Below, piece by piece: positions 12,823 through 54,474 of a DNA stretch of 56,210 nucleotides (position 1 is the first letter of the stretch; each line of letters begins with the position of its first letter). A model generated the notes under the pieces. It had not been told where the DNA came from and made no database searches. It saw only the letters and a list, made by a program, of their open reading frames with translations. The stretch is from Nitrosotalea sp. (lineage in GTDB: Archaea; Thermoproteota; Nitrososphaeria; Nitrososphaerales; Nitrosopumilaceae), in contig JANWLA010000013.1 in NCBI GenBank assembly GCA_025451075.1, forward strand, positions 1 to 56,210, written 5' to 3'. The position numbers were made by a program, and so were the translations under genes.

Positions 12823-14697
12823 TTATCTTGCACGTATTGCGTTTAAAATCACTCCGACATCAAGTGCTTCTTGAAGTAATGCACCTATTGCTGGAGGGAT
12901 GTATCCAAGACTTGCCATTGCCATAAAAACAAAGCTTACCCCTAATCCAATAAAGATACTTTGTTTTGCAACACGTAATGTTTTTTGGCTGATCTCTATT
13001 ACAGTAGACACTTTTGATATGTCATCAACTAGTAGAACTATGTCTGCAGCCTCTGCTGATATTGCAGTACCGTGAGCGCCCATGGCAATTCCTACTGTAG
13101 ATGCAGCCAAGGCAGGAGCATCATTAATGCCATCTCCAGTCATTACCACGTTTTCAAACTGTTGTCTTAGTTTTTTCACAGCCAATACTTTTTGTTCAGG
13201 AAGTAAGTTTGCTTCTAGATTTGTTATGCCCGCCTGCTTGGCTATGTTTTTTGCATTATCAAGACTATCTCCTGTTAACATGATTATTTGTTTGACTCCG
13301 AGTTCTTTGAGTTGTTTTACCGTGGAATTGACATTGGGGCGTATTTTATCCTCAAATATGATCACGCCTGCAGGTTTGCTGTTAATGCCAACAAATGCCA
13401 GCATCTTTCCATCTGAATTGATTTGCTTTTTTACTTCCTGAATGTATTGCGTAAATTCTATATTTGTAGAATTTTCAAAAACACTTTGAGAACCAATCTG
13501 TATGTACTCGTCTTTGACATGACCACTTACTCCAGCTCCTGGTAATTCATGAAAGTCTGTTGGAATTGTCAACTTTTCAAACACCTCTTGCCCTTTTTTT
13601 ACTAGTACACTAGCTGCAGGGTGAGAAGATAACTGTTCTAAACTTGCGGCCTTGTACAAAAGATCATCAGAACTCATGTTACTTGCAGGTATTATTTTCC
13701 CTATTATTGGAACCCCGAATGTAATGGTTCCAGTTTTATCAAAAACTACTACTTGGACTTTTCCGACTTGTTCTATCGCTGCCCCTGTTTTGATTATTAT
13801 GTTAGATTTTGCAGCTTTATTTATTCCACTTATGATTGCAACAGGAGTTGCAAATATCAATGGACATGGAGTTGCAACAACAAGTACTGCAAGAACTGTT
13901 TCTACATTATTTGTCAATAGCCATCCCAGTAAGCTGATGCAAATTGTTACTGGAGTAAACAAAACTGCATAACGGTCTGCCAGTCTTTGAATTGGTGCTT
14001 TTTCCTGTTGAGCGTTTCTGACAAGTTGTATTATTTTTGCATATTGACTTTCCCCACTAATTTTGTCTGCATTCATTTCAAATGCATTTCCTATGTTTAT
14101 AGTTCCACTGAAAACCTGTTCTCCTATTTTTTTTATTTTGGGTAAAGGTTCTCCTGTAAGTGACGATTCGTCTATCTCAGCCTGTCCGTGAATTATCTTA
14201 CCGTCTACTGGAATGAGATCTCCAGGACGTACCAAAAGCAAATCTCCGATTCTAACATCTGATACATTGATCTCTTCTAAATCTTGATCTTTTTTTCTAT
14301 GTGCAAATCTTGGTGAATGCGCAAGAAGCGTATCCAGTGAGAAAGATGCCTTTTTGAATGCATGATCCTCCAAGGCTTTGCCGCCTGACTGCATGAGAAC
14401 AATCACTAAACCTGGAAATGCATTATTCATCAATATTGCTGCAACTATAGCCAAAAGCGCTACAATATCGGACGCAAAATGAAGATGAAGCATATCTCGT
14501 ACGGTCTGCCAGATAATTGGTGCTCCTCCAATAACTAGTGTAATAAACCAAATCCATTTGCCTAATTCTTGTTGATTTGGAATCTCATGAAATATGCCGC
14601 CTACAAGTAAACCAATAATGGCAAAAATTGGTATCGGGTAATTTTTTACAAATGTCGTAATTTTTGCTGGTTTATGTATATCGTTGTTATTTATCAC
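12823..14697 (-). CDS. P1B-type heavy-metal-translocating ATPase (TPCPL class)
   Basis: 624-aa metal-efflux P-type ATPase. It has TGE (181-183, dephosphorylation), DKTGT (320-324, phosphorylated Asp320), GDGINDAPAL (hinge) and a transmembrane metal site motif TPCPL (276-280) in place of the CPC of copper or Cd/Zn pumps. There is no N-terminal metal-binding (HMA) domain. The C-terminus EALDVGVILNAIRAR is the usual last helix. The TPC motif places it in the less-studied P1B groups, so the ion (Fe, Co, Ni, Zn or Cd) cannot be assigned. A degenerate operator copy stands 40 nt upstream of the ATG. Confidence 0.88.
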   Translation of the reverse strand: MINNNDIHKPAKITTFVKNYPIPIFAIIGLLVGGIFHEIPNQQELGKWIWFITLVIGGAPIIWQTVRDMLHLHFASDIVALLAIVAAILMNNAFPGLVIVLMQSGGKALEDHAFKKASFSLDTLLAHSPRFAHRKKDQDLEEINVSDVRIGDLLLVRPGDLIPVDGKIIHGQAEIDESSLTGEPLPKIKKIGEQVFSGTINIGNAFEMNADKISGESQYAKIIQLVRNAQQEKAPIQRLADRYAVLFTPVTICISLLGWLLTNNVETVLAVLVVATPCPLIFATPVAIISGINKAAKSNIIIKTGAAIEQVGKVQVVVFDKTGTITFGVPIIGKIIPASNMSSDDLLYKAASLEQLSSHPAASVLVKKGQEVFEKLTIPTDFHELPGAGVSGHVKDEYIQIGSQSVFENSTNIEFTQYIQEVKKQINSDGKMLAFVGINSKPAGVIIFEDKIRPNVNSTVKQLKELGVKQIIMLTGDSLDNAKNIAKQAGITNLEANLLPEQKVLAVKKLRQQFENVVMTGDGINDAPALAASTVGIAMGAHGTAISAEAADIVLLVDDISKVSTVIEISQKTLRVAKQSIFIGLGVSFVFMAMASLGYIPPAIGALLQEALDVGVILNAIRAR

Positions 14698-24065: not shown

Positions 24066-24821
24066 CTATGATACTGTTACTACGCCTATTCTCCATGGAT
24101 GTATGGAACAGTAATAGTGGTATACTCCAGGACTGTCGAACTTGTAGGTGAATGTCTCACCAGTCTTTAGGACGGGACTGTTAAACATAGGAATGATGGT
24201 GCCTTGGTCATTTATGCTCTGAATGGTATGTCCTATGTTATCCTGGTTTTGCCATGTGACTGTGGTTCCTCGCAAAACTTCTGAATTGAGTGGAACAAAG
24301 AAACCCACACTTGATTGTGCAGAGTTGCCATTTGGAATGGTCACATTTGCAATTAGAGTGGAACCTACGGTTGTAAGCGGATCTTTTCCGCTTGCAAGAT
24401 ATTCTACGAGATAATTTTTACCGTTGCCATTCATCTCAGCGCTTATTTTCCATAAAGATCCTACCTTTGATGAAAGTAATCTATTGCCATCTAACACTAT
24501 GTTATATGATATTGCTTGTCTTGATGTTGCCGGTCCTGTGGCATGAAATGAACCATCATTATTGTAGTTAAATTGCCACTTGTCTGGAATTATTTTTACA
24601 ATTGTTGTAGATTGTTCCGCACTCATTATCACATAACCACTGTCTATCGTTGTTTGATTGTGCAGTAAAATTCTGAGACTAGATACATACATTTTTGGTG
24701 AATCTCCATTTAATAGTCCGATACCTGATCCTTTCATTACAATTGACGATGAATCAGCATACGCTGCATTATACGCTAGTATAGATGTTATGACAAAAGA
24801 TAAAATAATTAATTTCATCAT
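24066..24821 (-). CDS. Exported cupredoxin-domain protein
   Basis: 251-aa secreted blue-copper-like protein. Signal peptide at residues 1-22 (IILSFVITSILAYNAAYA); a middle domain of unknown type (25-145); a plastocyanin-like domain (about 155-251). Copper ligands His198 (GHTIQS), Cys238 and His241 (YYCSIHPW) are present. The axial Met position holds Arg244 (HPWR where HPWM is common), which could lower or raise the redox potential or leave a three-coordinate site. Thaumarchaea use many cupredoxins as electron carriers. An operator copy with perfect arms is 38 nt upstream. Confidence 0.87.
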   Translation of the reverse strand: MMKLIILSFVITSILAYNAAYADSSSIVMKGSGIGLLNGDSPKMYVSSLRILLHNQTTIDSGYVIMSAEQSTTIVKIIPDKWQFNYNNDGSFHATGPATSRQAISYNIVLDGNRLLSSKVGSLWKISAEMNGNGKNYLVEYLASGKDPLTTVGSTLIANVTIPNGNSAQSSVGFFVPLNSEVLRGTTVTWQNQDNIGHTIQSINDQGTIIPMFNSPVLKTGETFTYKFDSPGVYHYYCSIHPWRIGVVTVS

Positions 24822-28146: not shown

Positions 28147-30192
28147 ATGATTGAAAATCTGATTTTGTTCCAGATCGTTGTATCATTATTCCTAGGTGGA
28201 GCAATCCTTGGTTTGATATCAAGGAATAGTAGATTTGCACGACCAATGATCTTTATTCCTTCCATGATTGGCTCCATTTTCACAATCATATTTTCTGTTG
28301 ATGTAATAATGGCAAAGCCATTGTCATGGATCATTCCAAACATGCTTCCTTTCTTTAATCTCGAAATTTTTGTTGATGGCATATCTGCATTCTTTATGTT
28401 GATGATTGGAATAGTTTCGTTTGCTGTTTCATTATACTCACTTGGTTATTCAAAAGAATATGAAACCAAAAAAAGAATATCTTTCTTTGGTTTTCTTTTT
28501 AATACTTTTATTTTATCCATGATTCTTGTTGCAGGAACAAATAATGGATTTTTCTTTCTAATGTTTTGGGAATTAATGTCGCTAACATCATTCTTCTTGG
28601 TAATATATGATCATGACAAAGAAGAGAATGTCAAGTCAGGAATGACATATCTTGTCATGACACACTTTGGAACTGCGTTCATTTTTATTTCATTTTTACT
28701 TGGGTATCTTCAGACTGGAAGCTTTAGTTTTGACTCTTTTCGAACATCATCACCATCATTTCCTCATTTGATTAAAGATTTGATATTTGTATCAGCTTTT
28801 GTGGGATTTGGAACGAAGGCAGGAATTGTCCCATTACACACTTGGTTGCCAAAGGCACACCCTTCTGCACCAAGTAATGTTTCTGCGTTAATGTCTGCAG
28901 TCATGATAAAGATGGGCATATATGGCATAATCAGAACTGTCTTTGATTTTGCAGGCTTTGGCGCCTCACCAGATTATTCATGGTGGGGCATACTCATGGT
29001 CATTGCTGGATCTGCATCTGCATTAATTGGTATACTCTATGCAGTAGTAGAACGCGATATCAAACGTACCCTTGCTTTTTCTAGCATAGAAAACATTGGA
29101 ATAATTATCCTCGGACTTGGACTATCTATCGTCTTTGCCTCATACCATCTGCACGCATTATCGATTCTGGCCCTTGTGGCAAGCATGTATCATGCAATAA
29201 ACCATGCATTCTTCAAGGGATTACTTTTCATGGGTGCGGGTTCTGTTGTTTATGCTACTCACACAAAGGACATAGAAAAACTTGGAGGGCTAGTCAAACA
29301 AATGCCATGGACATCCATGTTGTTTCTAATTGGTGCAGTCTCAATAGCAGGACTGCCACCTTTCAATGGTTTTGTAAGTGAATGGCTAGGATTACAGGCT
29401 ATTCTTTCAAGCTCTCAAATACCATCAACAATACTGCAGATCTCAATTGCATTTGCAAGCTTGCCATTTGCTCTGACAATAGGACTTGCTGCAGCTACCT
29501 TTGTCAGATTGTTTGCAATGACATTTCTTTCAAAGACAAGAAGTATGCATATACTACACATTCGAGAGGTACCGCGTAACATGATTGCAGGTATGGCAAT
29601 ACTTGCATCTGTTTGTATTTTGTTTGGCATTGTTCCATTTTTGGGAATCTCTTTGCTAAGTACCGCATTTCATCTTACATCACAGCCAACAAGTCCATTT
29701 GATGCTATTACATTGAAAAACAATGGCACAACAAGTTTTGCAAATCTTTCAATGCCAGTTGTTGCAATAATGTTGTCTGCTGTAGCACTTGCAGTTTTCG
29801 GTTTTATACGTGTAATTGGTGGAAAAACGACAAAGACAATTTATGGTACATGGGACTGTGGATTTGGAAAACTAACTGAGAGAATGGAGTATACTGCAAC
29901 ATCGCTCTCACAACCAATACGTGTAGTGTTCAAATCTCTTTTCAAGTCACATAATGAAATCAACACAGAATTTTTTGTGCAAACAAATCCATATCTTGTA
30001 AAAACAATGAAGTTCAATTCTACAACAAAAAATATCTTCGAAGAAAATCTCTACACTCCGATAACATCTTCAACTCTTTTCATACTTGACAAGATACGAA
30101 AGATCCAGACGGGAAAGATTAACTCGTATTTGCTTTACATCATGCTTACCATAATTTTGCTTCTCATATTTGTGAGGTTAAGTCATGTCTAA
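28147..30192 (+). CDS. Ehr complex proton-pumping subunit, HyfB/NuoL-like
   Basis: 681-aa polytopic membrane protein of the antiporter-like (Proton_antipo_M) family. MFWELMSLTSFFLVIYD, PLHTWLPKAHPSAPSNVSALMSAVMIKMGIYGI and HAINHAFFKGLLFMGAGSV contain the conserved Glu, Lys and His residues of the proton channel. The tail KTIYGTWDCGFGKLTERMEYTATSLSQPIR is typical of HyfB-type rather than NuoL subunits. It is the first gene of the operon, and its end overlaps the next gene by 8 nt. Confidence 0.9.
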   Translation: MIENLILFQIVVSLFLGGAILGLISRNSRFARPMIFIPSMIGSIFTIIFSVDVIMAKPLSWIIPNMLPFFNLEIFVDGISAFFMLMIGIVSFAVSLYSLGYSKEYETKKRISFFGFLFNTFILSMILVAGTNNGFFFLMFWELMSLTSFFLVIYDHDKEENVKSGMTYLVMTHFGTAFIFISFLLGYLQTGSFSFDSFRTSSPSFPHLIKDLIFVSAFVGFGTKAGIVPLHTWLPKAHPSAPSNVSALMSAVMIKMGIYGIIRTVFDFAGFGASPDYSWWGILMVIAGSASALIGILYAVVERDIKRTLAFSSIENIGIIILGLGLSIVFASYHLHALSILALVASMYHAINHAFFKGLLFMGAGSVVYATHTKDIEKLGGLVKQMPWTSMLFLIGAVSIAGLPPFNGFVSEWLGLQAILSSSQIPSTILQISIAFASLPFALTIGLAAATFVRLFAMTFLSKTRSMHILHIREVPRNMIAGMAILASVCILFGIVPFLGISLLSTAFHLTSQPTSPFDAITLKNNGTTSFANLSMPVVAIMLSAVALAVFGFIRVIGGKTTKTIYGTWDCGFGKLTERMEYTATSLSQPIRVVFKSLFKSHNEINTEFFVQTNPYLVKTMKFNSTTKNIFEENLYTPITSSTLFILDKIRKIQTGKINSYLLYIMLTIILLLIFVRLSHV

Positions 30193-31126
30193 TTCTCTCG
30201 AAATTGTAATCGGAGTAATTCAGGTCTTGGTACTCATGGCACTTTCACCTTTGATGACTGGAATCATGAGAAAGACAAAGGCAAGGACGCAGAAAAGAAT
30301 GGGCGCCAGCATATTTCAGCCATATTATGACATGGCAAAACTCATGCGCAAAGACGAGGTGGTATCAGACCAGAGCTCATGGATCTTCAGGTGCACTCCT
30401 TGGGTAAACTTTGTTGCAATAGGAACTGCGGCATTTTTCATACCAGTGTTTCTTTCACATTCTCCATTTGGGCTTGTGGGTGATTTGCTTCTCATAGTTG
30501 GTCTGTTTGGCCTGGCTAGATTCTTTACAATGCTTGCAGGGCTAGACACATCCAGTACATTTGGAGGGATTGGAAGCAGCAGAGAAATGATGATTTCAAC
30601 ACTTTTGGAGCCTGCCCTTTTTCTTGCAATATTTGTTGTAGCACTCACCTATGGTGGAACAAATTTAAGTACAATCATAGAGACTGCATCAAACTCATCT
30701 CTTCTTCCACATCCGCAACTAATCTTTGCCGCAATTGCCATGTTTGTTATAATACTGGGAGAAACAGGCCGTCTGCCGTTTGGAAATCATGCAACACATC
30801 TTGAGCTTACGATGGTGCATGAAGCAATGGTTCTGGAATATTCAGGCAAAAGTTTGGCGTTAATAGAATGGTCCCAGTCAATAAAACAGATCATGCTCTT
30901 TGCATTGATTGCAAATATCTTTGTTCCATGGGGGATATCATCATCAATTTCAGTTTCTACACTAGGTTTTGGGCTTGTAACATTTATCATAAAGATTTCA
31001 GCATTTGCGGTGTTTGTTGCCTTTTTAGAATCATCTATTGCAAAATGGAGATTATTTAGAGTTCCGGATCTGATTGCTGTAGCAATTGCAAGTTCGTTGG
31101 TAGGATTGGTACTTTACTATCTTTAG
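30185..31126 (+). CDS. Ehr complex subunit, HyfC/NuoH-like
   Basis: 313-aa membrane subunit equivalent to NuoH/ND1, which couples the hydrophilic arm to the pump. RTQKRMGASIFQPYYDMAKLMRKDEV and the conserved FGNHATHLELTMVHEAMVLEYSG loop (acidic residues facing the quinone-like cavity) are present. About 8 transmembrane helices. It overlaps the preceding gene and abuts the next (TAGTG). Confidence 0.9.
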   Translation: MSNSLEIVIGVIQVLVLMALSPLMTGIMRKTKARTQKRMGASIFQPYYDMAKLMRKDEVVSDQSSWIFRCTPWVNFVAIGTAAFFIPVFLSHSPFGLVGDLLLIVGLFGLARFFTMLAGLDTSSTFGGIGSSREMMISTLLEPALFLAIFVVALTYGGTNLSTIIETASNSSLLPHPQLIFAAIAMFVIILGETGRLPFGNHATHLELTMVHEAMVLEYSGKSLALIEWSQSIKQIMLFALIANIFVPWGISSSISVSTLGFGLVTFIIKISAFAVFVAFLESSIAKWRLFRVPDLIAVAIASSLVGLVLYYL

Positions 31127-31800
31127 TGATCATTATGGAAACGATACAACTTGATGTTTTGAAAATCTCTGGCGCAATACTACTAATTGCTACTTTTGGA
31201 GTTATTGCAAGACGCGGTTTCATGGACTGGCTCAATGCATACAGGCTTCAATCTGTTGTACTTGCAGTAGTGACAACAATCATAGGATATGTTACAGGAA
31301 TATGGGAAATCTACATTGCAGCTGCACTTACACTTGTGATAAAATCTCTAGTGATTCCAAAAGTTTTGACACATGTAACAAAGAGTCTTGAAATTGAATC
31401 CAAGACTGATGCTAATCCGTATCTGAGCCTGCGTACATCAATAATTGTTTCCGCATTCCTTGTAGCCATGTCCTATTTTCTCAGCCAGCAGATTCCTTTC
31501 AAATCCGACCCTGTGGTAAGCGTCTTTTTACCTGTCTCGATGGCTCAGTTTTTTTTGGGGCTTTTTGCATTAGTGAACCGGAGAACTGCGTTAAGCCAAG
31601 TTGTAGGTCTTTTGGTAATAGAAAATGGTCTTTTTCTATTCACACTAGTTCTAACACATGGAGTTTCTCTGATAATAGAAGTTGGTATATTTGCAGATAT
31701 TTTGGTGGGAATAGTAATTTCATCCATTCTTCTCTTTAGGATGAGTAGAACATTTGACAGTCTTGATGTGGACAAGTTAGAAAACCTGAGGGATGACTAG
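31126..31800 (+). CDS. Ehr complex subunit, HyfE-like
   Basis: 224-aa membrane protein with about 6-7 helices, resembling HyfE, a subunit carrying NuoK-like helices. QVVGLLVIENGLFLFTLVLTHG contains the conserved Glu within a hydrophobic helix expected in NuoK/MrpC-like pumps. The GTG at 31126 overlaps the hyfC-like stop; an ATG at 31135 is the more usual start and would remove three residues. Confidence 0.84.
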   Translation: MIIMETIQLDVLKISGAILLIATFGVIARRGFMDWLNAYRLQSVVLAVVTTIIGYVTGIWEIYIAAALTLVIKSLVIPKVLTHVTKSLEIESKTDANPYLSLRTSIIVSAFLVAMSYFLSQQIPFKSDPVVSVFLPVSMAQFFLGLFALVNRRTALSQVVGLLVIENGLFLFTLVLTHGVSLIIEVGIFADILVGIVISSILLFRMSRTFDSLDVDKLENLRDD

Positions 31801-33293
31801 TGAATTCACTCTCATCTAATCTTATAGTTGTATTTCTTCTTTTAACTCCACTAGTTGGAGGAATTCTTGTAACATTTTTCAGAAAAAAAAGAATAATTGA
31901 AATTGTAACAATTTCTTCTGCATCACTCGTACTGATTCAAGTATTTTTTATTTTGTCTATAATAATAAATGAAAAAACACTTTCTGCATTTGGGAATGCT
32001 TTCTATATTGATTCTTTTGGAGCGGTAATTTTACTTCCAATATCAATAGTTGGATTTGTTTCTGTATTGTATTCAAAAAATTACATGGGAAGACAATACC
32101 ATATTGGACTAGTGGATGATAGACACATCGTGCGATATTATCAAGGCCTGAGCATCTTTTTGTTGTCCATGTTGGTTGTTCCAATCACCAATAACCTCGG
32201 AGTAATGTGGGTCACAGTGGAAGCAACCACATTAATTTCAGTTCTTTTGATTATGCTATACTTTAAAGAAAATGCCATCGAGGCAGCATGGAAATATCTC
32301 ATAATTGCAACAGTTGGGTTATCCTTTGCTCTAATAGGTACCGTATTTTTCTACTATGCAAACATCACTGCGGGAAGTTCTGAGGATGCAATGAACTGGA
32401 CAGGTATGGTGCATAATTCAAAATTGTTTGATCCTAGTCTAGTAAAAATTGCCTTTGTCTTTATTCTTGTAGGGTATGGAACCAAGGCTGGCCTTGCCCC
32501 CATGCATACTTGGTTGCCTGATGCACATAGTGAGGCGCCAACGCCTGTCAGTGCACTCTTGTCTGGAGTTCTCTTGAATTGTGCCCTTTACGGAATAATC
32601 AGGTTTCATATAGTAAGCAGCGGTACATTAGGTCCTGCATTTTCAAATCAACTTTTGATAATACTTGGAGTTGTATCAATAGGCATAGCCGCTGCCTCCA
32701 TTTACTTTCAAAAGGACATGAAAAGAATGTTGGCCTATTCAAGTGTTGAACATATGGGTATTGTATCACTTGGAATTGGATTTGGCGGTTTGTTTGGAAT
32801 CTATGGGGCAATACTCCAGATAATCAATCATGCCATAGCAAAACCGTTGATGTTTTTTGCGAGCGGAACAGTCAGCCAAAAATATGAAACAAAAGTAATG
32901 TCAAAAATCAAAGGAATAATCCAAGTGATGCCAATTACCGGTGCACTATTTTTGATTGGAGGGTTTGCACTGGTGGGGATGCCACCATTCAATATTTTCC
33001 TAAGTGAATTTCTTGTACTCAGTTCAGGTTTTCAGAGCGGGCAATTTCTTGTAACCATAATCGTGATATCATTTCTTGTGATAACATTTGCAGTGTTTTT
33101 ACGGCATTTGATAAAAATGACTTTTGGAAATCCTGTAACAGAAATGAAAAAAGATGACATGGGAAAACTAGCAATAGTGCCGATGGCGATATTGGCTTCA
33201 CTTGTCATAATATTTGGCTTCTACATCCCAGAACAATTGCAAACTTTGGTACATAACGCATCAAGCATAATCAATGGAGGAAGTATGACATGA
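31800..33293 (+). CDS. Ehr complex proton-pumping subunit, HyfF/NuoM-like
   Basis: 497-aa second antiporter-like subunit. MWVTVEATTLISVLLIMLYF, PMHTWLPDAHSEAPTPVSALLSGVLLNCALYG and QIINHAIAKPLMFFASG carry the channel Glu, Lys and His residues. The GTG start overlaps the previous stop by one base (TAGTG). With the HyfB-like subunit the complex has two large pump modules, as in hydrogenase-4. Confidence 0.9.
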   Translation: MNSLSSNLIVVFLLLTPLVGGILVTFFRKKRIIEIVTISSASLVLIQVFFILSIIINEKTLSAFGNAFYIDSFGAVILLPISIVGFVSVLYSKNYMGRQYHIGLVDDRHIVRYYQGLSIFLLSMLVVPITNNLGVMWVTVEATTLISVLLIMLYFKENAIEAAWKYLIIATVGLSFALIGTVFFYYANITAGSSEDAMNWTGMVHNSKLFDPSLVKIAFVFILVGYGTKAGLAPMHTWLPDAHSEAPTPVSALLSGVLLNCALYGIIRFHIVSSGTLGPAFSNQLLIILGVVSIGIAAASIYFQKDMKRMLAYSSVEHMGIVSLGIGFGGLFGIYGAILQIINHAIAKPLMFFASGTVSQKYETKVMSKIKGIIQVMPITGALFLIGGFALVGMPPFNIFLSEFLVLSSGFQSGQFLVTIIVISFLVITFAVFLRHLIKMTFGNPVTEMKKDDMGKLAIVPMAILASLVIIFGFYIPEQLQTLVHNASSIINGGSMT

Positions 33294-34912
33294 ACCAAGT
33301 AAATATCCAGATTTGTATCAAAGAAATAATATCCAGTTTCTTAAACAAAATAAAAAAAGTTGATCATAAAAATAACGAGATATACATTCATCTAAGAGAC
33401 ATTGATGACATGCCAGTAATATGTAATCATGTTTATACAAGTTTAAACACAAAACTTGCAACAATAATTTGTACCGATGAGCAAAAAAATGACAATGACT
33501 TTGTAATTCGTTATGTCTTTGAAAAATTAAATGCCGACATTTTTATTTTTATTATAGCATCACTGAAAAAAAGTAAATATTTTCCAAGCATCGTCTCACA
33601 AATACCGGCCGCAGCATCATACGAGCGTGAAATCAAGGATATGTTTGGGCTTGTTCCTGTTGGTAATCCTGACTTGAGACCACTAGTCTTACACGAACAC
33701 TGGCCAAATGATATTTTCCCCTTGAGAAAAGAGTTTGATCTCAAGACAAAAGTAGCAAGGCAAGAACAAGAATATCCATTTCTAAGAGTCGATGGTGATG
33801 GAATATGTGAAATCTCTGTTGGCCCAGTGCATGCTGGAATCATAGAACCTGGTCACTTTCGGTTCAGCGTTTTAGGGGAAAACATAATCAACCTAGAAAC
33901 ACGTCTTTTCTACGCCCACAAAGGAATAGAAAAACTTGCAGAGTCAATGAAACTCGATGAAGTCTTATTGTTGTCTGAAAGAATCTCAGGTGATGAATCT
34001 GTTGCAAATTCCACCGCTTATTGTCAAGCAATAGAAAAAATTTCGCAGGTATATATTCCAAACAAAGCAAAAAAGACAAGGACAATTTTTGGTGAGTTGG
34101 AACGAGTCTACAACCACATCGGAACACTGGGAGGAATTTCAACTGATGCAGGTTTTGCTTTTGGTGCTGCAAGATTGAATATTCTAAAAGAAAGGATGAT
34201 GCAGCTCAATGAATCCCTTAGTGGAAGTCGCATACTTTTTGGAGTAAATAGAATAGGTGGTGTAAAATACGATATATCTGACAAAAATAAAAAATTAATT
34301 CTTGAACAAATTGAAGAAGTTTCTTCTGATTTTGAAAAGATAATTGTGTTCCTTAGATCAAAATCGTCTTTTATGGATAGATTGAAAGGAACTGGTATCA
34401 TACCAAAGAAAATTGCACATGATCTTGGCATTGTAGGAGTTGCTGCAAGATGTGTGGGAATTGATGTAGATACAAGACATGATCATCCATATGCAAACTA
34501 TACTGTTCACAATAGCAGAACGCCTCAACAAATAATGCAGGATCAAATTGAGATGGAAAAAAGATCAGGCGATGCATTGGCTAGGTTTGAAGTCAGAGTA
34601 AAAGAAGTCCATGATTCATTTAAAATCGTGAGAGAATCGCTTGACCTTGATGATGACGACGGTCTATTTACAGAGGTTCCAAAGGAAATAACACCTTACA
34701 GTTATGCGCTTGGATATGCTGAATCCCATAGGGGGCAAACACTTCACTGGATTATGATGGGTGAGAAAAACTCTATATTCAGATATAAAATCAGGACTGC
34801 TTCATTTTGCAACTGGAAAATAATCGAACATGCTGTACTAAACGACATCGTTCCTGATTTTCCACTGGTAAACAAAAGTCTGGATCTTTCTTATTCGGGT
34901 AATGATCTATGA
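33290..34912 (+). CDS. Ehr complex large subunit (NuoC-NuoD/HyfG-like) lacking [NiFe] cysteines
   Basis: 540 aa: an N-terminal 30-kDa (NuoC-like) domain (1-150, with YEREIKDMFGLVPVGNPDLR) fused to a 49-kDa/hydrogenase large-subunit domain. In [NiFe] hydrogenases the first metal motif is R-x-C-G-x-C; here it is R231-I-S233-G-D-E236. The second, D-P-C-x-x-C, is D532-L-S534-Y-S-G537. All four Ni ligands are lost, so the protein cannot hold a NiFe site and is not a hydrogenase. The remaining fold (FYAHKGIEKLAE, SHRGQTLHWIMMG-like region) is intact. Start overlaps the previous stop (ATGA). Confidence 0.9.
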   Translation: MNQVNIQICIKEIISSFLNKIKKVDHKNNEIYIHLRDIDDMPVICNHVYTSLNTKLATIICTDEQKNDNDFVIRYVFEKLNADIFIFIIASLKKSKYFPSIVSQIPAAASYEREIKDMFGLVPVGNPDLRPLVLHEHWPNDIFPLRKEFDLKTKVARQEQEYPFLRVDGDGICEISVGPVHAGIIEPGHFRFSVLGENIINLETRLFYAHKGIEKLAESMKLDEVLLLSERISGDESVANSTAYCQAIEKISQVYIPNKAKKTRTIFGELERVYNHIGTLGGISTDAGFAFGAARLNILKERMMQLNESLSGSRILFGVNRIGGVKYDISDKNKKLILEQIEEVSSDFEKIIVFLRSKSSFMDRLKGTGIIPKKIAHDLGIVGVAARCVGIDVDTRHDHPYANYTVHNSRTPQQIMQDQIEMEKRSGDALARFEVRVKEVHDSFKIVRESLDLDDDDGLFTEVPKEITPYSYALGYAESHRGQTLHWIMMGEKNSIFRYKIRTASFCNWKIIEHAVLNDIVPDFPLVNKSLDLSYSGNDL

Positions 34913-35700
34913 CAGAAAAATCTAGAAAAATACTTGGCAATCATGTGGAAACTAGGAATCTAGATGACTTGATTATTGCAGATAATTATCGAGGCAAGAT
35001 TACGTTCACATCTGAAACGGTACACGGTCAACAAGATCTGTTAGAAAGTATCTGTCCAACAAAAGCTTTGTCCAAAAAAGATAGTGATACAATGACTCTG
35101 GATAATGGCAAGTGCATAATGTGTGGCTATTGTACAGAATCTTTTCCAAAACTAATGAAAATAGAAAACAAGTGTCCAAGTCCAACCAAAACCAAAAATA
35201 AACTAGTTGAATATTCTGCTCCGCAAGAACATTTGCCAGAAAAATCTTATGAGCAAATAGGTAGAGAACTAAAAGAAAAAATTAAAAAATTATTTGGACG
35301 TTCACTTGCAATACGTGAAATTGATGCAGGATCATGCAATGGTTGCGAAATAGAAATTACTGCTCTAAATAATCCGATATATGACATTGAAAGATTTGGA
35401 ATCTGTTTTGTATCGTCCCCTAGGCATGCAGATGTGTTATTGGTAACTGGCCCTGCCTCAAGAAATATGCAAACTGCATTGCTGAGAACTTATGAGGCAA
35501 CACCATCCCCTAAAATTGTAATTGCTGTAGGTGCATGTGCTTGTAGTGGAGGTATATTTGGTGATAGCTATGCAACAACAGGTGGCATTGATAATGTCAT
35601 TCCTGTTGATGTTTATATTCCAGGGTGTCCGCCTAGGCCAGAAATATTGATTCAGGGATTGCTGTTGGCTGTTAATAGGATGATTACAAATGGGATTTAA
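34909..35700 (+). CDS. Ehr complex small subunit: ferredoxin-like domain fused to NuoB/HyfI-like domain
   Basis: 263 aa. The N-terminal part has Cys49-Pro and C69-x2-C72-x2-C75, enough for one [4Fe-4S] cluster of a half ferredoxin (HyfH remnant). The C-terminal domain (130-260) is NuoB/HyfI-like with all four proximal-cluster ligands: C143-x2-C146 (GSCNGCE), C210 (VGACAC) and C240 (PGCPPRP). So electrons can reach the large subunit even though its NiFe site is gone. Start overlaps by 4 nt, and the end overlaps the downstream 51-aa gene. Confidence 0.9.
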   Translation: MTEKSRKILGNHVETRNLDDLIIADNYRGKITFTSETVHGQQDLLESICPTKALSKKDSDTMTLDNGKCIMCGYCTESFPKLMKIENKCPSPTKTKNKLVEYSAPQEHLPEKSYEQIGRELKEKIKKLFGRSLAIREIDAGSCNGCEIEITALNNPIYDIERFGICFVSSPRHADVLLVTGPASRNMQTALLRTYEATPSPKIVIAVGACACSGGIFGDSYATTGGIDNVIPVDVYIPGCPPRPEILIQGLLLAVNRMITNGI

Positions 35701-51449: not shown

Positions 51450-52334
51450 ATGGATGTAAAACAGATTCCTGATTTACTTTCACTTTCTGATTTTCCTGTT
51501 GGTTTTGGAGGCTGTAGAAATGATGGAACCCACTTTGAATGCTGCGAGTATGACGTTATAGTAATGGATGAGCAATCCGGAGAATCAATTCACAAAATAG
51601 CAGATGATCTTATCAGGATACGTCATTATTCTATTGATGATTCTAGCAGTGACCTTTTGTATCATCTGCAGGATATGAGCATCATCAGTGACAACCAGTG
51701 GAAGCTCAGGATGCTATTATCAAAAATTAAAGAAAAAAAAGAACAGATCACAATGTCATATGCCAGAAGCTGTCTTGTTGATGCAGGAATTCTTGCCAAC
51801 AAGGCAAAAGATTTTCTTAAAACACAAAATCCTTTTGCGGGAATCTGGATAAAATGCGCATCATACTCTTTGGCAGATGCCATATTCTGTCTTAATCTTA
51901 AGAGGCCCAGTCCAACTCACATGATGGAAATAATGCGAGACATGAAAACAGATAAGGTGAACCAAAAGTTTTCTATAATACATCAAATTCTTGGAATTGA
52001 AAGGTCGTCGACATCACTGCTTTCAAGGATGGTAAAGTCAACTATTGGATTTTCTGACATGACCGAGAATAATGGAAATTCTGAAATTATCCAAAAGAAA
52101 TACGAGTATTTCATAGAGAACTTGCTTCTCTCAGATTGCTACTTTTATCTTGGATACGTAAATCGAAACAATGTGCTTAAAATCAAGAACCAAATCCACA
52201 AAAACCCTGAATTTATCCACGTGCTAAAAGTTGGGCTTGATATAGAAAATGATCCTATGGTAATTGATAACCAAGCTACAACATTGATACAATCTATAAA
52301 CCAAATACTTGGGGATATGAAGACTCAGCCATAG
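51450..52334 (+). CDS. Conserved hypothetical protein (294 aa)
   Basis: Soluble; no family recognised with confidence. N-terminal part FPVGFGGCRNDGTHFECCEYDVIVMDEQSG has the look of a nucleotidyltransferase-like strand-loop (G-G ... D-V-I-V), then a helical region (SYARSCLVDAGILANKAKDFLKTQNPFAGIWIKCASYSLADAIFCL) that could be HEPN-like. This MNT-HEPN comparison is speculative. The ATG at 51450 is chosen because TATA-like CTTTATAGC stands about 26 nt upstream. Confidence 0.65.
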   Translation: MDVKQIPDLLSLSDFPVGFGGCRNDGTHFECCEYDVIVMDEQSGESIHKIADDLIRIRHYSIDDSSSDLLYHLQDMSIISDNQWKLRMLLSKIKEKKEQITMSYARSCLVDAGILANKAKDFLKTQNPFAGIWIKCASYSLADAIFCLNLKRPSPTHMMEIMRDMKTDKVNQKFSIIHQILGIERSSTSLLSRMVKSTIGFSDMTENNGNSEIIQKKYEYFIENLLLSDCYFYLGYVNRNNVLKIKNQIHKNPEFIHVLKVGLDIENDPMVIDNQATTLIQSINQILGDMKTQP

Positions 52335-52397
52335 GATAGGAATGCTTGACTAGGATATTTCGATAACTTTTAAAACCCTGTGTGGGATCTCCCAAGT

Positions 52398-52538
52398 ATG
52401 ACCGATGCAGCATGTGGATGCGATTCATCCGCTGAAAATAGCACAGAATGCGATTGTGAAATGCAGGGCTCATGTCTTTGTGACGGTAATTGTACTTGCA
52501 AAGCATCAGTATGCAAAGAACACGTAGCATCATTCTGA
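52398..52538 (+). CDS. 46-aa cysteine-rich metallothionein-like protein
   Basis: Short gene starting MTDAACGCDSSAENSTECDC, with 9 Cys in 46 residues arranged as four C-x-C pairs (CGC, CDC, CLC, CTC) plus Cys39. C-x-C clusters of this density are the hallmark of metallothioneins that hold Zn/Cd/Cu in thiolate clusters; no known subfamily is recognised. A T-rich terminator follows directly. It is convergent with a small gene whose N-terminus also has C-x-C. Confidence 0.65.
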   Translation: MTDAACGCDSSAENSTECDCEMQGSCLCDGNCTCKASVCKEHVASF

Positions 52539-52586: not shown

Positions 52587-52757
52587 TTACTTTTCGTTCT
52601 CGTCTTTTATGCCCCATGTTTTAACAAGCTCTTTTTGGAACTTGTCTACTTGTTTTTCATTGAGGGCCTCTCCACAATTCTTGTGTGTCGGAACTACGAC
52701 CATGCCGTCTAGCTTAAAGTCTACTTCATACATATGGACTTTTTCACATTCGCACAT
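52587..52757 (-). CDS. 56-aa small protein with N-terminal CxC
   Basis: Starts MCECEKVHMYEVDFKLDGMV and continues with VPTHKNCGEALNEKQVDKFQKELVKTWG. Three Cys and two His near the N-terminal half could bind a metal; the rest is a charged helix. Unknown family. It is convergent with the cysteine-rich gene at 52398 and shares its C-x-C feature, so a common metal theme is possible but unproven. Confidence 0.6.
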   Translation of the reverse strand: MCECEKVHMYEVDFKLDGMVVVPTHKNCGEALNEKQVDKFQKELVKTWGIKDENEK

Positions 52758-52851: not shown

Positions 52852-54474
52852 ATGCGAAAGTACACCGTATTCGTGATTTTTGCATTTTTGCTAATTGTAC
52901 CTGTTGCTTTACAGTCTGCACACGCTACTTCTGGTTCTGATTCCTGGTATCCTGGAAAAGGGCTCAAACAAGGCGATTATTTTAGCTATAACGTATGTTG
53001 GACAGACTGGCATAACTGCGCTCCATTTCAGATGAATTTCTGGGTTAAAAATGAGACAAGTGATGGAAGTGGATGGAATGTTGTGTTTATGGCAGTTGAC
53101 GGTTCAATCATACAAAAAGGAATAATGACAATTGGAAAGATAACTCCAGACCCGACATCTTTTGATCCTAATATTTCTGATTATACCGGAGTGTATAGAA
53201 GCACAGTATCTTGGCTAGATTCCTTTGCAACAAAAGATACTCCAAAAACTTTCAACGTTCCAGCATGGGGCAGAACTGGTTCAGTAGGTGGACAGTCTGT
53301 TGGCCCTGTAGATCATGAAAAAGTTACAGTGGGAGCTGGCACATTTGATACGTATGTTTTGGGATGGCACAAAGGTGTTGATAATAAAATTTGGGTAGAT
53401 TCCAGTGTTCCATTTCCTGTAAAAGCTTATGTCTATGTGGATGTGACTACCGGAGCACCTCCTCCTGACTATACTCTGGAATTATTAAAAATGGGAAATA
53501 GCCCAACAGAACCTGATGTATTGAAAACATCATCTACTAACGCTGTCATTACAAGTGCTCTATGTGAGACACCCAACATGGAACAAGATTCAGTTCACCA
53601 AGTTATTACAACAGATTCAAGTTCAATGGTTGTGGATTATAGATACAGTCCATCTAATCCACACAATGGCTGTCCAATAGAATTCAGATTGTCCTTTGAA
53701 CAAAACTTTGACCAAAGTCAAAAATTCAGTAATTTACAATATGATATCTTCATAGTTGATAATAATGATCAAAAGTTGTACTCTCTTGCTCAAGACAAGG
53801 GCAGAACATCCTTGTTTGCACCAGTTGGAGATGATGATAACACATTTGTCATGAAAGGAACTACTCCTGTAACTCATTTTGTTATAGCTGCCTTGGGTAC
53901 TGGACCTGAAGGATCTCTTCCAGATACTACTGCTGCTGGACTAGTCCGAGTTGATGTCAAGACACAGGACGCTTTTGGCACTCCAGTTACTACTGGACAG
54001 ACAAACCAAACATCTACTGGAAACAATTCTACAATGAATAATCCCGGAAATGGCACATCCATGAATGGTACCATACCAATGCAAGTTTCAATTAGCATTC
54101 CACAAGGCTCAACAGACACCAATGGTGTAACATATGACAAAAAAGATGTATCCATAATGCCTGGCACTACAATTACCTGGACAAATAATGATGACAAGCC
54201 TCATACCATAACCAGTGGCTCAGCTCAAGGAGGCCCTGATGGCAAGTTTGACAGTGGATTGATACAGGCAGGACAAACATTCTCTCATACATTTACTGAT
54301 GCAGGCTCGTACACTTACTTTGATCAGCCCAGTCCTTGGTTAGCAGGTTCTGTGACTGTAAGTGCTGCAGTACCAGAATTCCCATTGAGTTCACTGATGA
54401 TAATGGCAATCGTAGTTGGACTGGGAGTTTTATTTGTCAGAATAAATTCTAGGTTATCAAATACTAGACTGTAA
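52852..54474 (+). CDS. Anchored surface protein with degenerate plastocyanin domain and PEF-type C-terminus
   Basis: 540 aa. Signal peptide at 1-25 (VIFAFLLIVPVALQSAHA), a large extracellular domain (30-370), a Thr/Asn-rich linker with many N-x-T sites, a plastocyanin-like domain (about 410-503) and a C-terminal VPEFPLSSLMIMAIVVGLGVLFV helix with basic end, like archaeal PEF/PEFG sorting signals. In the plastocyanin domain the first His is kept (KPHTI), but the Cys and second His are replaced (FDQPSPWLAG in place of YCSIHPWM), so type 1 copper binding is unlikely. Confidence 0.8.
   Translation: MRKYTVFVIFAFLLIVPVALQSAHATSGSDSWYPGKGLKQGDYFSYNVCWTDWHNCAPFQMNFWVKNETSDGSGWNVVFMAVDGSIIQKGIMTIGKITPDPTSFDPNISDYTGVYRSTVSWLDSFATKDTPKTFNVPAWGRTGSVGGQSVGPVDHEKVTVGAGTFDTYVLGWHKGVDNKIWVDSSVPFPVKAYVYVDVTTGAPPPDYTLELLKMGNSPTEPDVLKTSSTNAVITSALCETPNMEQDSVHQVITTDSSSMVVDYRYSPSNPHNGCPIEFRLSFEQNFDQSQKFSNLQYDIFIVDNNDQKLYSLAQDKGRTSLFAPVGDDDNTFVMKGTTPVTHFVIAALGTGPEGSLPDTTAAGLVRVDVKTQDAFGTPVTTGQTNQTSTGNNSTMNNPGNGTSMNGTIPMQVSISIPQGSTDTNGVTYDKKDVSIMPGTTITWTNNDDKPHTITSGSAQGGPDGKFDSGLIQAGQTFSHTFTDAGSYTYFDQPSPWLAGSVTVSAAVPEFPLSSLMIMAIVVGLGVLFVRINSRLSNTRL

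Follow-up and report, generated by a model that had tools for sequence, protein, structure and literature searches.

Does a short, cysteine-crowded open reading frame in a Nitrosotalea genome encode an archaeal metallothionein? A sequence-only reading of the window, by which we mean the whole 56,210-nucleotide stretch of contig JANWLA010000013.1 analyzed here, had proposed a metallothionein-like peptide at this locus.

A nine-cysteine peptide and its predicted promoter

The frame starts with ATG and runs for 46 codons, encoding MTDAACGCDSSAENSTECDCEMQGSCLCDGNCTCKASVCKEHVASF. Its translation bore out the nine cysteines and four C-x-C motifs that had been claimed for these 46 residues; the cysteines occupy positions 6, 8, 18, 20, 26, 28, 32, 34, and 39. 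Among the 417 open reading frames of 30 to 100 amino acids (aa) in the window, this one ranked top with its four C-x-C motifs, the next best having two. After first-order Markov randomization, none of 33,436 open reading frames from 60 randomized windows combined at least nine Cys with at least four C-x-C in 60 aa or fewer. The product lacks a signal peptide, and its nine-Cys domain is the only one in the window's own genome. The AlphaFold model was of low confidence (pLDDT 54) and predicted no compact fold, a result that is uninformative either way. The features of the locus are collected in Table 1.

Table 1. Features at and around the nine-cysteine peptide gene (positions in the window)
Feature	Coordinates	Strand	Basis or remark
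Conserved upstream gene, 294 aa, no assigned function	51450..52334	+	Ends 63 nt before the peptide
TATA box TTTAAA, preceded by BRE-like aact/aacc	52369..52374	+	Positions -29 to -24 relative to the ATG
Palindrome-like GGGATCTCCC, flanked by the TATA box and the ATG	52384..52393	+	Candidate operator, Nitrosotalea only
Free nine-Cys metallothionein-like peptide, 46 aa	52398..52538	+	ATG open reading frame, conservation
Convergent 56-aa protein; CxC, H, and HKNCG conserved	52587..52757	-	Conserved neighbor
Secreted protein, C-terminal cupredoxin domain	52852..54474	+	Domain match here, absent from a relative outside Nitrosotalea

A TTTAAA sequence lay about 29 to 23 nucleotides (nt) 5′ of the ATG in all 39 unique upstream regions examined. 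This is the spacing expected of leaderless archaeal transcripts, and as judged from these upstream regions the peptide gene has its own promoter, of the leaderless type. The sequence GRGATCYC, found between the TATA box and the ATG in 22 of 26 Nitrosotalea upstream regions, could be an operator limited to this genus. The combined pattern TTTAAA-N{2,14}-GRGATCYC occurred once in the window's own genome, at the peptide promoter itself. We also searched six Nitrosotalea genomes for a metal regulon defined by this pattern; the extra matches elsewhere were few and comparable to control counts, and the idea was rejected.

Conservation and distribution of the peptide

The peptide was sought in the Nitrosopumilaceae, the GTDB family that includes Nitrosotalea; family f1 of the genome sets was identified with it from the names of the matching records. 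Matches were detected in 179 of 200 genomes of the family and in all 22 genera, and 115 of the 119 genomes at 90% completeness or above had one. The nine-Cys peptide is a near-core gene of the Nitrosopumilaceae. An order-wide search returned 128 of 300 genomes, every one of them from this family, and left at least four Nitrosopumilaceae genomes (G108, G010, G020, and G106) without a match. Phylum-wide, 66 of 398 genomes matched: 63 were Nitrosopumilaceae, with strong matches, and three were others, at E values of 0.007 to 0.09 only. No convincing nine-Cys peptide was found outside the family among these 398 genomes, and no viral copy was confirmed in the viral contig set.

Among named species genomes, 227 relatives were confirmed, and 80 of these entered the locus analysis; the closest named genome for the peptide was that of Candidatus Nitrosotalea devanaterra (96%). 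Conservation of the cysteine pattern had been set in advance as the test of the metallothionein-like reading, with its loss counting as refutation. All nine Cys were present in all 80 loci, which comprised 34 free peptides and 46 proteins in which the domain is fused to a longer chain. Across 78 aligned rows, the invariant positions were the nine Cys plus D19, M22, Q23, and G24, in an alignment that omits a family member with Leu at position 22 or His/Glu at position 23; in a more varied set (A1), D19 was the sole invariant residue beside the cysteines. Between the first and second CxC motifs, the loop varied in both length and sequence. Each Cys was retained in 27 of 27 unique Nitrosotalea coding sequences, and both TGC and TGT were used at seven of the nine positions. 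The median dN/dS of these coding sequences (334 of 351 pairs) was 0.20, which supports strong purifying selection on the peptide.

A membrane-fused form of the domain

In many genomes, the match to the peptide fell inside frames of about 455 to 535 aa. Here the sequence-only reading proved incomplete: it had recognized the free peptide but missed a membrane-fused form. The fused proteins begin with a signal peptide and an outside domain of some 300 aa, which a single transmembrane (TM) helix separates from a conserved tail; the nine-Cys domain closes the chain at its C terminus. The signal peptide and the TM segment were called by eye. The tail carries the motif GYQTSASSGGYQTNRGEAQL...TRSVY (29 sequences aligned). 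Because of the signal peptide and the basic residues that follow the TM helix, the nine-Cys tail should lie on the cytosolic side. Fused forms occurred in at least 8 of the 22 genera (g2, g4, g11, g13, g14, g15, g16, and g18). By hand count, the fused gene and cofD were arranged divergently in 52 of the 58 loci, and five of the six misses were contig ends; for one locus (L105), both CofD and CofC were confirmed. One contig labeled Alphaproteobacteria (L121) held a thaumarchaeal fused gene that paired in a quick tree with L128, with a zero-length end branch; it is probably a mis-binned contig.

The membrane protein matched nothing in Pfam or NCBIfam. Its structural model was of low confidence (pLDDT 53), and no PDB match was obtained at an E value of 0.001 or below. 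Versions without the Cys tail are present in other families, and the window's own genome encodes a tail-less homologue of 391 aa at 27% identity. Of 151 genomes in the order, 73 contained the membrane part (the search gave 74 hits, of which G046 was discounted as containing the free peptide only), and AmoA was detected in 74 of the same 151. A hand comparison of the two found both in 70 genomes, the membrane protein only in 3, AmoA only in 4, and neither in 74. AmoA bearers are essentially one clade, as our own reading of the family lists also indicated, and the co-occurrence is therefore not independent functional evidence. It is real but confounded, and marks a protein of ammonia oxidizers and not a function.

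Tail variation and repeated attachment

We compared the C-terminal ends of 86 membrane-protein frames, which are the loci collected here and include some redundancy. Sixty ended in an A-type Cys domain, 5 in a B-type Cys domain, 7 in RGS(M/L)PK, and 14 in other sequences. The B-type tails came from five Nitrosopumilus-group genomes (G109, G129, G134, G158, and G195), and all five consist of a free-type peptide frame with the former initiator Met in frame. In the four genomes in which both could be read, the B-type tail and its free counterpart shared 81 to 93% nucleotide identity. In G158, a single residue distinguishes the two copies where they overlap, and the free one extends a few residues further. 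In a quick tree, the B-type rows nested among the A-type rows, and the B label needed three changes, at least one of them forced. Since the B-type tails nest in this way, a free copy replaced an older tail, and the nine-Cys domain was attached or replaced more than once.

Other tails were also seen. In two Nitrosopumilus-group loci (L171 and L172), the tail of the membrane protein bears another domain, roughly 80 aa long, and no Cys domain. One Nitrosotalea homologue ends in a zinc-ribbon-like CxxC-CxxC sequence, with a subthreshold zinc-finger match (E value of 0.0042). The CxxC-CxxC-tailed homologue, which belongs to genome G067, sits between two additional free nine-Cys genes, near an amoA gene. 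This arrangement is the best evidence that the free and tethered domains may do the same job. The extra copies (L210:15-5740) seem to belong to an inverted duplication that includes the end of a TPR gene.

Neighboring genes and the copper context

From Nitrosotalea through Nitrosopumilus, the free gene lies in a common order: the 294-aa gene, the peptide, the convergent 56-aa gene, and a secreted protein. The 294-aa gene lay directly 5′ of the peptide, about 60 nt away and in the same orientation, in 35 of the 40 loci with a free peptide (by hand count); two of the five misses were contig ends. Its sequence gave a weak impression of a nucleotidyltransferase-like motif. The convergent frame does begin with a C-x-C motif, as had been stated, its start reading MCEC. 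It was found in all 12 genomes tried, tail to tail with the peptide wherever both coordinates could be read. In a five-row alignment of its product, C2, C4, H8, H25, and C28 were kept, and no Pfam family matched; on this residue pattern, the conserved 56-aa protein may itself be metal-binding. The assembly from which the window comes contains another, nearly identical 56-aa gene at the end of a contig (G000:C66:3-122), perhaps as a result of strain variation.

The window had also been described as encoding several copper-related proteins, which is right only in part. Two proteins with cupredoxin domains were indeed present, the secreted protein downstream of the peptide and another at 24066-24821. 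A heavy-metal P1B ATPase (12823-14697, minus strand) exceeded the Cd-type NCBIfam cutoff and fell under the copper-type one. A relative of the downstream secreted protein in L040 had no Pfam match and hence no cupredoxin domain. Because the domain is not conserved there, the copper neighborhood is a weak argument; with the P1B ATPase passing the Cd-type model and not the copper-type one, we dropped it as evidence for copper. The window also encodes an Nramp transporter. At some distance (28147-35700, plus strand) lies a hydrogenase-4/complex-I-like cluster, here in an ammonia oxidizer; it comprises an antiporter subunit that passes the cutoff for hydrogenase 4 subunit B, together with NuoC/D-like and NuoB-like proteins.

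Relation to known metallothioneins and copper stores

The peptide matched no Pfam family and no NCBIfam family, metallothionein models included, at an E value of 1 or below. One of 18 family members reached an E value of 0.027 with PF00131 and one of 78 reached 0.44 with PF02067, neither of which is significant. The description as metallothionein-like thus holds by kind, as the peptide is small, lacks a signal peptide, keeps nine invariant Cys, is under strong purifying selection, and has a predicted promoter of its own, but not as membership in a known family. In the functional sense of the term, it is a small Cys-rich protein whose CxC motifs are conserved in relatives.

A profile of the peptide family found no relatives in the PDB. 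The sole PDB hit of the peptide itself was the beta domain of a fish metallothionein (1m0j), at a nonsignificant E value of 6.1, with CxC-x5-CxC-x3-CxC-x4-C in register. The vertebrate metallothionein beta domain carries nine Cys, as is also visible in the sequences compared (MT-2 beta, 2mrt, and 1m0j). Like the peptide, it is small, dominated by CxC motifs and without a signal peptide, and the spacing CxC-x5-CxC-x3-CxC is identical in the two. The peptide differs in adding a leading CxC 9 to 10 residues upstream and in being poorer in Cys beyond the third shared CxC. It also differs from vertebrate metallothionein in being single-domain and archaeal, in its invariant D/M/Q/G residues, and in the lack of a significant sequence match. 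Random placement of four CxC and one C yields the shared spacing in about 1.4% of cases, so convergence suffices to account for it and is the safe reading of the likeness.

The bacterial metallothioneins SmtA, BmtA, and PmtA (Pfam family PF02069) are likewise small prokaryotic Cys-rich proteins, but the peptide has no Pfam match and no such fold is predicted for it by the low-confidence model. The bacterial proteins are described as well-folded in the available part of one source (PMC10612145). Another source, also available in part, describes NVIE_028200 of Nitrososphaera viennensis, a related ammonia oxidizer, as a Csp (DUF326, PF03860) and proposed Cys-rich copper store (PMC7785015). Csp resembles the peptide in being a Cys-rich putative metal store but belongs to a different sequence family, and the peptide, having no PF03860 match, is not a Csp. 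Of 151 genomes in the order, 12 carried PF03860: 11 from family f8, 1 from f9, and none from the Nitrosopumilaceae. We considered whether Csp and the peptide replace each other and abandoned the idea, PF03860 being too patchy within f8 to count.

The literature searched, most subscription papers aside, yielded neither an archaeal metallothionein family nor a metallothionein in Nitrosotalea. The available portions of PMC4161860, PMC3407056, PMC10694973, PMC10612145, PMC7785015, and PMC12448741 describe no such protein, and that of PMC3407056 states that Thermococcus gammatolerans has no metallothionein orthologues.

Discussion

We consider it probable that the Nitrosopumilaceae possess a metallothionein-like domain that serves as a free cytosolic thiolate metal buffer and that, in at least 8 of the 22 genera, also occurs in a membrane-tethered form. 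A metal-thiolate cluster protein fits the peptide because its nine thiols are arranged in CxC pairs and it has neither a signal peptide nor a predicted fold. In the cytosol, the nine Cys of the free peptide would wrap a small metal-thiolate cluster and so buffer free metal. By analogy with the nine-Cys vertebrate beta domain, the cluster might hold roughly three ions of Zn/Cd or 4 to 6 of Cu(I). The tethered domain, at the cytosolic end of a membrane protein specific to ammonia oxidizers, would buffer metal or hand it over at the membrane. Copper is attractive as the bound metal because these organisms live on copper enzymes; the neighboring genes do not decide. Marine and soil ammonia-oxidizing archaea are copper-dependent and sensitive to both excess and shortage of copper. 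The available part of PMC13003922 reports inhibition of Nitrosotalea sinensis above 5 µM copper. Against a metal buffer stands the failure to find a metal regulon, the Nitrosotalea palindrome not recurring in its own genome, and against a pure chelator, the invariant D19, M22, Q23, and G24, which exceed a chelator's needs.

These four residues, invariant in the 78 rows, would be at home in a small zinc-structured interaction module, folded by two or three Zn, whose fused copy recruits a partner to the membrane. Such a module is also favored by the fusion of the nine-Cys domain to a conserved tail, by the zinc-ribbon-like tail that another Nitrosotalea homologue has instead, and by the unrelated domain on the tails of L171 and L172. 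We nevertheless think it unlikely, if possible: nine Cys with four CxC exceed the thiol requirement of a structural zinc site, the loop that separates the first CxC from the second is variable in length and sequence, and no compact fold is predicted, albeit at low confidence. The thiols could instead act as a sink or redox sensor for NO and other reactive nitrogen that ammonia oxidation generates, the signal being the release of metal. The peptide's family is one of ammonia oxidizers, its membrane partner co-occurs with AmoA, and thiolate clusters, those of metallothioneins in general, react with NO. This role is nonetheless quite improbable, as no such peptide was detected in the other families that bear AmoA, and ammonia oxidation in itself hence does not depend on it. 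We would be very surprised if so CxC-dominated a peptide, small and Cys-rich as it is, proved to be an iron-sulfur cluster binder and small electron carrier, since its alignment contains neither the ferredoxin-like CxxCxxC nor the rubredoxin-like CxxC pattern and it lacks any Pfam match.

Within the metallothionein-like reading that we prefer, a bolder version would have a metallothionein repeatedly grafted onto the cytosolic tail, forming a membrane reservoir, probably of copper, for loading or protecting the ammonia monooxygenase and cupredoxin machinery across the membrane; we offer it tentatively and find it doubtful as a whole. The novelty of the finding lies in the tethered form; for a metallothionein-like domain, serving as the tail of a membrane protein would be unusual. 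Within reach of the literature searched, this would be the first described archaeal metallothionein-like family. Together, the free and fused forms suggest dedicated metal buffering right at the membrane, and the near-core peptide with its tethered counterpart offers a concrete small gene to test in a family that includes abundant marine lineages.
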